Positions 40,218 through 42,317 of a DNA stretch of 64,000 bases are shown here, piece by piece. A program made the position numbers and the translations under genes. The notes beneath the pieces are model-generated. The model made no database searches. It was not told where the DNA came from and was given only the letters and a program-made list of their open reading frames with translations. The DNA is taken from positions 806,001 through 870,000 of the forward strand of contig NZ_RJUO01000001.1 of assembly GCF_003752365.1 (NCBI RefSeq). The letters run 5' to 3'. The stretch comes from Frondihabitans sp. PhB188 (GTDB lineage: Bacteria > Actinomycetota > Actinomycetes > Actinomycetales > Microbacteriaceae). How positions within the stretch are numbered: position 1 is the first letter of the stretch; each line of letters starts with the position of its first letter.

Positions 40218-41087
40218 TCAGCCGATGAGGTTCTGGACGAACACGTGGGGCGTGAAACCGGTCAGGTCGTTGATCCCCTCCCCCTGCCCGACGAGCTTGA
40301 TCGGGATGCCCGTCTGCTCCTGCACCGCCAGCACGAACCCGCCGCGCGCCGAGCCGTCGAGCTTGGTGAGCACGAGCCCGGTCACGCCGGCGTGCTGGAT
40401 GAACGCCTCGGCCTGCGCCAGGCCGTTCTGCCCGGTCGTCGCGTCGAGCACGAGCAGCACCTCGGCGATCTCGGTCTGCTTCTCGACGACGCGCTTGATC
40501 TTGCCGAGCTCGTCCATGAGCCCCGCCTTGGTCTGGAGGCGACCGGCCGTGTCGATGATGACGATCTCGATGCTCTCGCGCATGGCCTTCTCGACCGTCT
40601 GGAACGCGACGGACGCGGGATCCTGCCCCTGCTGCTGGGGCTTCACGATCTGCACGCCGGCGCGCTCGGCCCAGGTGCCGAGCTGCTCGACCGCCGCCGC
40701 ACGGAAGGTGTCGGCCGCCCCGACGACGACGGTGCGGTCGAAATTGCGCAGGAACTTGGCGAACTTGCCGATCGTGGTGGTCTTGCCGACGCCGTTGACG
40801 CCGACCACCAGCACCACCGCCGGGCGGTTCGAGAGCTTCAGCGTGGAGTCGAGCTTCGACAGGCGCTCCTCGAGGTTCTCGCGCAGCATGCGCCGGAGGT
40901 CGGCGGGGTCGGTCGTGTTGTACCGGGCCACCTGCTCGCGGAGGTGCTCGGTGATCTGCTCGGTGACGTCGGGGCCGAAGTCGGCGCCGATGAGGGAGGT
41001 CTCGAGGTCGTCCCACGTCGTGTCGTCGATCGTCTTGCGACTGAAGACGCCGCGGAGGGCACCGGAGAGGGACCAGGGATTTGCCAT
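40218..41087 (-). CDS. ftsY: SRP receptor FtsY
   Basis: 289 aa. NG domain only: VVGVNGVGKTTTIGKFAKF, VIIDTAGRLQTK, TKLDGSARGG. It lacks the long acidic A domain of E. coli FtsY, so membrane contact must come from the short N-terminal helix (MANPWSLSGALRGVF). Paired with ffh in one transcript. Divergent from terC and its riboswitch. Confidence 0.96.
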   Translation of the reverse strand: MANPWSLSGALRGVFSRKTIDDTTWDDLETSLIGADFGPDVTEQITEHLREQVARYNTTDPADLRRMLRENLEERLSKLDSTLKLSNRPAVVLVVGVNGVGKTTTIGKFAKFLRNFDRTVVVGAADTFRAAAVEQLGTWAERAGVQIVKPQQQGQDPASVAFQTVEKAMRESIEIVIIDTAGRLQTKAGLMDELGKIKRVVEKQTEIAEVLLVLDATTGQNGLAQAEAFIQHAGVTGLVLTKLDGSARGGFVLAVQEQTGIPIKLVGQGEGINDLTGFTPHVFVQNLIG

Positions 41088-41145
41088 GCCTGCAACATTA
41101 GCCGGGAGCTTGCGAACGGCTTTCGCCGTCGCGTAGCGTTGTCGT

Positions 41146-41318
41146 CATTGAAGGGGAGTATTCCCAACGCAGCGGTGTCGTCAATACGTTCCAGAAAGAC
41201 CTGGTTCCGTACCGCTGGTCCTGGCACTTGTGTAGGGGCGTTAGAGACCTTCAGTGAACAGCCCTGCCATAAAGCGACCGGTGAAACGGCGTGCAGGGCC
41301 CAACACTGAAGGAACATC
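41146..41318 (+). ncRNA. yybP-ykoY manganese riboswitch upstream of terC
   Basis: Diagnostic sequences are GAAGGGGAGTA (41150-41160), GTCGTCAATACG (41177-41188), ACCGCTGG, and AGAGACCTTC (41243-41252), matching the conserved parts of the yybP-ykoY aptamer. P1 is CATTGAAGG (41146-41154) with CCTTCAGTG (41248-41256). A following hairpin pairs GCCCTGC (41261-41267) with GCAGGGC (41293-41299). CACTGAAGG at 41304-41312, holding the terC ribosome site, is an exact complement of the 3' P1 strand. So P1 (Mn bound) and RBS masking exclude each other, predicting translation ON with Mn2+. Confidence 0.93.
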
Positions 41319-42317
41319 GTGGAAACCTCATTCCTCGTCTGGGCGATCACCATCGCCGGCATCCTCGGCCTCCTGGTCTTCGACTTCTACAGTCACGTCA
41401 AGACGCCGCACGAGCCGACCATCAAGGAGTCGGCGTTCTGGTCGGTCGTCTACATCTCGATCGCGATCCTGTTCGGCGTCGGCATCGGCGTCATCGCTGG
41501 CTGGGAGCCGGGCGGCGAGTACTTCGCCGGCTGGATCACCGAGAAGGCGCTCAGCGTCGACAACCTGTTCGTCTTCCTGATCATCATGACCGCGTTCGCG
41601 GTCCCGCGGATCTACCAGCAGAAGGTGCTGCTCGTCGGCATCGCGATCGCCCTGCTCTCGCGCGGCGTGTTCATCGCGCTGGGCGTCGTCATCATCGAGA
41701 ACTTCTCGTGGGTCTTCTACCTGTTCGGCATCCTGCTGTTCTGGCTGGCCTGGAGCCAGGTCAAGCCCGGCGAGGAAGACCACTCCGGTGACGCCGACAG
41801 CCGCCTGATCCGCACCCTCCGCCGCATCATCCCGACCAGCAAGGACTACGTCGAGGACCGCCTCACCACGAAGGTGGACGGAAAGCGCCTCTTCACCCCG
41901 CTCTTCCTGGTGATGGTCGCGATCGGCCTCACCGACGTGCTGTTCGCGCTCGACTCGATCCCCGCGATCTTCGGCCTGACGCAGGACCCGTACATCGTGT
42001 TCACCGCGAACGCGTTCTCGCTGCTGGGCCTGCGCCAGCTGTACTTCCTCATCTCGGGCCTGCTCGAGAAGCTCGTCTACCTGGCCCAGGGTCTCGGCGT
42101 GATCCTCGCCTTCATCGGCGTGAAGCTCCTCCTGCACGCTCTGCACGTGAACGAAGTACCCTTTATCAATGGCGGTCGGTCCGTCGAATGGGCCCCCGAG
42201 ATCCCCATCTGGTTCTCGCTCGGGTTCATCCTGCTCACGATCCTCGTCGCTACCGTCCTCAGCCTGCGCAAGTCGGCTGCGGACGCGAAGAAGAAAGACG
42301 AGGTCGCTGCGTCCTAG
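41319..42317 (+). CDS. TerC family membrane protein (probable Mn2+ exporter)
   Basis: 332 aa, eight to nine membrane helices. The TerC core shows EKALSVDNLFVFLIIM and, in the second half, VLFALDSIPAIFGLTQDPYIVFTANAFSLLGLRQLYF, with the membrane Asp residues typical of the family. Start GTG 41319 follows GAAGGA. Control by the Mn-sensing yybP-ykoY riboswitch directly upstream supports manganese efflux or metal supply for exported proteins, the role shown for several TerC proteins. Confidence 0.95.
   Translation: METSFLVWAITIAGILGLLVFDFYSHVKTPHEPTIKESAFWSVVYISIAILFGVGIGVIAGWEPGGEYFAGWITEKALSVDNLFVFLIIMTAFAVPRIYQQKVLLVGIAIALLSRGVFIALGVVIIENFSWVFYLFGILLFWLAWSQVKPGEEDHSGDADSRLIRTLRRIIPTSKDYVEDRLTTKVDGKRLFTPLFLVMVAIGLTDVLFALDSIPAIFGLTQDPYIVFTANAFSLLGLRQLYFLISGLLEKLVYLAQGLGVILAFIGVKLLLHALHVNEVPFINGGRSVEWAPEIPIWFSLGFILLTILVATVLSLRKSAADAKKKDEVAAS

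Follow-up and report, generated by a model that had tools for sequence, protein, structure and literature searches.

The leader analysed here lies immediately upstream of a terC/alx-type gene in the window (the whole stretch of DNA analysed, 64,000 nucleotides), which encodes a TerC/Alx family metal homeostasis membrane protein. The gene product matches PF03741 (E 1.8e-49) and the NCBIfam model TIGR03718, 'R_switched_Alx' (355.9 bits, cut-off 246.4), and is identical to E. coli Alx at 93 of 253 aligned positions (37%). Placement before a manganese or other cation transport gene is a feature of the yybP-ykoY riboswitch family, and the window element shares it. The direction of transport by TerC is disputed, with recent work cited in PMC13274385 favoring Mn export; the same paper describes a Vibrio terC behind a yybP-ykoY element as Mn-induced, and its Vibrio RNA-seq coverage as not dropping at the riboswitch. 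The elements of the leader and the gene start are collected in Table 1.

Table 1. Elements of the terC leader and gene, in positions of the window.
Feature	Position	Strand	Remarks
P1 (switch helix), 5' strand CATTGAAGG	41146-41154	+	read from the sequence; conserved core 41150-41154 (GAAGG)
Loop L1 signature GGGGAGUA (5' side)	41153-41160	+	first two bases also in P1 pairing
P1.2 region, 5' side	41161-41170	+	pair of U41161 with A41243 kept
P3 arm	41171-41216	+	P3.1 (41171-41180 / 41208-41216), loop L3 and P3.2 hairpin; in both alignments (19 and 86 sequences)
Loop L3 UCAAUAC	41181-41187	+	A41183 matches A41 of L. lactis, the adenosine in contact with Mn2+
P4 hairpin (variable)	41217-41239	+	all five pairs changed on both sides (86 sequences)
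Loop L1, 3' side GAGA	41244-41247	+	each position kept in 84 to 86 of 86 aligned sequences
P1, 3' strand CCTTCAGTG (RNA: CCUUCAGUG)	41248-41256	+	common to P1 and the SD-masking helix
Linker stem-loop	41261-41299	+	41261-41267 pairs with 41293-41299 (GCCCTGC/GCAGGGC); draws the two switch strands together
SD-masking strand CACTGAAGG (RNA: CACUGAAGG)	41304-41312	+	carries the terC ribosome site
Shine-Dalgarno (SD) AAGGA of terC	41309-41313	+	just 5' of the GTG at 41319
terC/alx-type gene	41319-42317	+	GTG start, 332 aa

The structure, comprising P1, L1, P1.2, P3.1, L3, P3.2 and P4, was drawn by hand from 19 diverse aptamers, the window's included. Across this alignment 81.7% of cells are paired, compared with 64.7% in shuffles, and the covariation score is 0.469 against 0.170 for shuffled sequences, with none of 500 shuffles scoring as well. 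An alignment of 86 sequences, which was fitted by a model and so favors the structure, gives 0.619 against 0.192 (again 0/500). The conserved aptamer structure and its conserved metal-site loops are direct results of computation, as are the mutually exclusive helices and the covariation of the masking helix described below. The L1 signature together with a 3' GAGACC above a short P1, a yybP-ykoY feature, is present in the window; within it, positions 41154-41160 (GGGAGUA) do not vary in any of the 86 aligned sequences, and 41153 is G in 84 of them. In the L. lactis riboswitch, L3 has the sequence UCA41AUUC, with N7 of A41 in contact with Mn2+ (PMC6754395). The equivalent of A41183 is present in all 85 non-gapped rows of the larger alignment. 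Where loci were retrieved with the motif pattern, the search itself demanded the UCA of L3; this was not so for the 30 terC loci found by protein homology (the best 30 of 191 matching genomes), every one of which contains CGUCA.

P1 of the window comprises nine pairs, of which one is a G-U (U41148-G41254), just as the original prediction had read it. The inner five of these pairs form in 18-19 of the 19 aligned sequences, whereas the outer four (41146-41149) form in only 6-8, so the conserved P1 is restricted to 41150-41154 / 41248-41252. Over the 86 sequences this core is 98.8% paired, and three of its five pairs have changed on both sides. Stabilization of the P1 switch helix by Mn2+ is described for yybP-ykoY members in PMC6754395. 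Further up the stem, the base following GUA pairs with the base preceding GAGACC in 19 of 19 sequences, using all four Watson-Crick types; among 134 leaders, 126 have a standard pair there and eight have C-A. P1.2 itself shows a register shift in the window's sub-clade: AACGC (41166-41170) is able to pair with GCGUU (41238-41242), the UCCC of the region is probably bulged, and the window and two relatives (L003 of genome G004 and L004 of G006) have GUUA where other relatives read GGAA. Two middle pairs of the usual four are absent in the window and in L003. The shifted segment (41161-41170, 41238-41243) adjoins the metal-site loop.

The distance between GUANUCC and CGUCA is 11-16 nt in 130 of 134 leaders (those found by the motif pattern being limited to 36 at most), which leaves no room for P2 plus P3; in the window only three helices can meet at the junction. 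RF00080 members (E. coli mntP, L. lactis and X. oryzae) share with the window the L1 signature, the 3' GAGACC and the Mn-contacting adenosine of L3. The crystallised members, however, have a four-way junction with helix P2, a trait that is absent from the three-helix window element, which RF00080 does not match. We do not hold P2 as defining for the family, since the Mn-responsive E. coli alx leader also lacks it.

A search with the yybP-ykoY model had been proposed as a check on the family assignment, and Rfam RF00080 gave no match in the window at the gathering threshold, nor any at E<=10 on 351 bases round the leader. The E. coli alx leader, used as a positive control, likewise gave no match at E<=10 on 351 bases, so the miss cannot exclude an alx-type form in the window. 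The E. coli mntP leader, which has P2, reached 41.6 bits, under the 45-bit cut-off. RF00080 matched one of 60 relatives and eight of 246 genomes in a phylum draw, one of these above the cut-off; E. coli is one of the matching control genomes in both surveys. A covariance model, R1, built from 19 actinobacterial leaders, scored 81.7 bits on the window (a training sequence) and 56.8 bits (E 1.3e-14) on the E. coli alx leader, which lies outside the training set, and found no match at E<=10 in the E. coli mntP leader.

The alx leader resembles that of the window in its R1 architecture match, its lack of P2 (by eye), its Alx/TerC target subfamily, its invisibility to RF00080 and its L3, CGUCAUUACG, which is of the same type. 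Both alx and mntP leaders of E. coli belong to the yybP-ykoY family and confer Mn responses on reporters, the alx reporter rising 3- and 6.5-fold at 1 and 2 mM Mn (PMC9603457). The alx and window leaders differ in the fate of the P1 3' strand: that of alx is able to fold into a hairpin with the bases next to it on the 3' side (GACCUUGCC/GGCGAGGUC), well upstream of the start codon, while that of the window pairs with the ribosome site itself. A further known case, likewise actinobacterial, is C. glutamicum cg2157 (terC), for which PMC3890552 lists a yybP-ykoY leader together with a 5' UTR that was observed; the likeness is one of published listing, and that leader, unlike the window's, was detected by RF00080 as the model then stood (49.13 bits in the paper's table). 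Annotation of such a leader before an actinobacterial terC has therefore been published already, and PMC3766115 places the family in its most widely distributed group. Among the papers listed, titles and abstract openings on yybP-ykoY, terC leaders, Actinobacteria, Streptomyces, mycobacteria and three-way junctions contain no description of a P2-lacking actinobacterial form.

The yybP-ykoY Mn2+ riboswitch identity put forward in the original prediction is supported by the L1 and L3 signatures, by a clade model that also recognizes alx, and by a target gene of the Alx type (TIGR03718). The R1 match to alx, along with the P2-lacking nature of the terC copy, places the element in the alx type. 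Because of that same match, we no longer regard Mn riboswitches without P2 as a new architecture.

The element recurs in Actinomycetota. Scanning species genomes with AAGGGGAGTANTCC-N(8-36)-CGTCARTACG returned at least 118 stretches; the 80 titles among the matches listed are all of Actinomycetota, with genera such as Curtobacterium, Microbacterium, Arthrobacter, Nocardioides and Pseudonocardia among them. Although the scan was not selected for terC, this gene lies within 1600 bases downstream in 112 of 118 among the matches listed, and in L071, one of the six motif loci without it, the stretch ends too soon. Conversely, the motif lies upstream of terC in 30 of 30 loci found by protein homology (the best 30 of 191 matching genomes, window included). 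Viral contigs gave no match to the motif. R1 was found in 7/7 genomes of the genus (E<=0.01), in 154/198 of the family and in 65/296 of a phylum sample, the phylum counts for R1 and RF00080 coming from overlapping but different genome draws. The genes following 31 listed R1 loci are terC in 21 (window included), a P-type cation ATPase in five, mntP in one, a Na/Ca exchanger family gene in one and an unknown gene in one, with two lost at contig ends. Control of metal transport genes by Mn2+ is thereby suggested in bacteria for which current RNA-family annotation shows none.

In the window, the strand that closes the aptamer can be claimed by a second helix. As originally predicted, 41248-41256 is complementary base for base to 41304-41312, giving an alternative helix of nine Watson-Crick pairs that shares a strand with P1 and so excludes it. 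An exact nine-base complement arose in 13 of 20,000 dinucleotide-preserving shuffles of 41257-41318. Ligand-free fold prediction assigns the nine SD-helix pairs probabilities of 0.89-1.0 and P1 a probability of about 0. The predicted ensemble energy of the SD-masked state is -74.3, as compared with -69.3 when P1 is forced, an advantage of about 5 kcal/mol that, on this model, would be the cost that docking must cover. The stem between the two strands, a further element of the original prediction, is present in the window but recognizable in close sisters only: it is identical in sister locus L008 and shifted in L004 (by eye), whereas the leader of L009 has a hairpin that differs from it (by eye).

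To follow the masking helix through relatives we used 154 leaders with an assigned start codon, which reduce to 59 when redundancy is removed at 75% identity. The 151 motif matches had been reduced by dropping six without an assigned terC start, merging identical leaders to leave 135 and dropping one incomplete leader; from the 31 listed model loci, ten without terC and the window's own locus were dropped. The window's leader is represented among the 59 by a sister, L003/L008, whose helix has one mismatch. When each P1 3' strand was paired with the last 32 nt of its own leader, the mean duplex energy was -13.20 kcal/mol, compared with -9.41 (sd 0.32) for permuted partners, and none of 20,000 permutations was as low, a count from which shared ancestry has not been removed. 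Restricting the permutation to strands with the same first five bases again gave 0/20,000 for the 59 leaders. By class, the number of permutations as good out of 20,000 was 0 for CCUUC (18 leaders) and 19 for CCUUG (17), with weaker results for CCUCC (156; 8 leaders), CUUUC (688; 8) and CCUCG (1684; 4). The eight nucleotides past the first five bases, taken alone, gave 164/20,000, and four control aptamer segments had no preference for their own partners. A lack of co-variation of the nine-base-pair pairing in relatives had been set beforehand as a refuting result; the pairing does co-vary, which favors the proposed translational switch through two mutually exclusive pairings.

Contiguous pairing of at least six bases to the Shine-Dalgarno region is seen in 39 of the 59 leaders, and pairs of several types occur at every one of positions 5-8; examples of paired P1 strand and ribosome site, matched by eye, are CCTTCAGTA/TACTGAAGG, CCTTCAGCAC/GTGCTGGAGG and CCTTGGTC/GACCAAGG. 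Predicted ligand-free folds place the P1 strand with the ribosome-site region at a mean probability of at least 0.5 in 41/59 leaders, and P1 reaches that level in none of the 59. A P1 switch helix in competition with the expression platform, another yybP-ykoY feature, is therefore present, and the masking helix offers a clean covarying case of a strand common to aptamer and ribosome site. Contiguous pairing is absent in 20 of the 59 leaders, 14 of which begin with CCUUG, and these 14 may mask the site in some other way. The aptamer 5' strand GGGGAGUACUCC found no support as the mask in CCUUG lineages (3977/5000 permutations as good, 20 leaders), in what is a weak test because the bases hardly vary.

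Taken together, we read the element as an alx-type, P2-lacking yybP-ykoY Mn2+ riboswitch that controls terC translation and is opened by high Mn2+, and we give this reading a probability of roughly 0.88. From these comparisons we infer that the ligand is Mn2+, that it turns the gene on and that control is exerted on translation. At low Mn2+, 41248-41256 would pair with 41304-41312, hiding the Shine-Dalgarno sequence and keeping terC off. At high Mn2+, the ion would bridge L1 and L3, docking the two arms and stabilizing P1, and with the P1 3' strand kept in the aptamer the ribosome site would be freed and terC translated. The leader is real and well conserved and is very probably a translational Mn2+ riboswitch. 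It looks like a new, well-supported example of the switch type known from E. coli alx, where a single strand serves either to keep the sensor together or to cover the ribosome site.

The same aptamer could instead act mainly on transcription, through intrinsic or Rho-dependent termination, as precedents in the family illustrate: L. lactis uses P1.1 for antitermination (PMC6754395, PMC11087558), and in the mntP leader of E. coli transcription is terminated by Rho (PMC11647493). Within our own set, the P1 3' strand of L183 can enter a hairpin that ends in AAAGGUC and is followed by a T-rich run, before a P-type ATPase gene (by eye), an arrangement that resembles a variant of the switch acting on transcription. 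In the window, however, there is no terminator-like site at 41050-41330, and the competing helix carries the Shine-Dalgarno sequence and covaries with it leader by leader, making mainly transcriptional control improbable. A somewhat better case, still an unlikely one, can be made for an element of yybP-ykoY descent that, in this sub-clade, has been turned by the P1.2 register shift toward sensing a different ion or pH, or has had its metal site weakened by it. The GUUA for GGAA in the window, L003 and L004 and the probable UCCC bulge are what such a change could draw on, and the sub-clade's loss of two P1.2 pairs might alter ligand binding; the E. coli alx reporter, moreover, responds to alkaline pH as well (PMC9603457). 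Against this, the known metal-site bases, GGGGAGUA and UCA, are unchanged.

That the nine-base complementarity is fortuitous, next to a genuine aptamer, with the leader acting otherwise, is very hard to credit. Short complementarities do arise by chance, and the contiguous version is missing in the 20 leaders noted above, but the rarity of the complement in shuffles and the covariation with the ribosome site in relatives both speak for the masking helix. Translational control of terC by Mn2+ accordingly remains our preferred reading.

The window's genome also carries a second copy, L194 (G000:C7:32009-32139, minus strand; 32.3 bits), upstream of mntP, with a GGCCC/GGGCC P2 hairpin and an ACAUAC-type L3; RF00080 matched just 31 bases of it (E 0.13). 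The genome therefore holds a terC copy without P2 and an mntP copy with it, as does E. coli, where by eye the alx leader has no hairpin between GGGGAGUA and P3 and the mntP leader has one; a single cell thus offers a setting for testing what P2 does. Nine mntP genes lie over the cut-off in 80 family genomes. The motif occurs in the 600 nt upstream of three of them, always accompanied by a P2-like hairpin (by eye); GGGGAG[TA]A was not found in that interval for the other six. A strict linkage of P2 to the target gene was not borne out: four of 134 leaders have 29-31 nt at the place of P2, and two genus genomes (G005 and G004) have second copies, L215 and L216, with L3 GUCGACAUAC and no obvious P2 before another transporter-like gene. 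At its start this gene is similar to the one in L191, which encodes a Na/Ca exchanger family protein. Extra sequence at the P2 place, partly hairpin-like by eye, occurs in the terC leaders L024:2669-2795, L030:1126-1252, L145:6586-6729 and L148:1396-1524, which may be intermediate between the forms with and without P2.

We tentatively propose, at somewhat less than even odds, that the P2-lacking three-way-junction form is a separate Mn2+ riboswitch subtype of E. coli (alx) and Actinomycetota. This subtype would account for most Mn riboswitches of Actinomycetota, be largely invisible to Rfam and dock its arms without the four-way junction of the crystal structures, perhaps with a Mn2+ or pH set point other than that of the mntP form in the same cell.

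The same motif also precedes five genes for proteins of 265-290 aa with similar starts (L040:5065-5919, L069:2712-3545, L076:2135-2929, L089:4063-4932 and L164:1679-2527). None of the five has a Pfam match, nor do the two that were compared with NCBIfam match there, and these proteins may belong to the Mn regulon as an unrecognized member.
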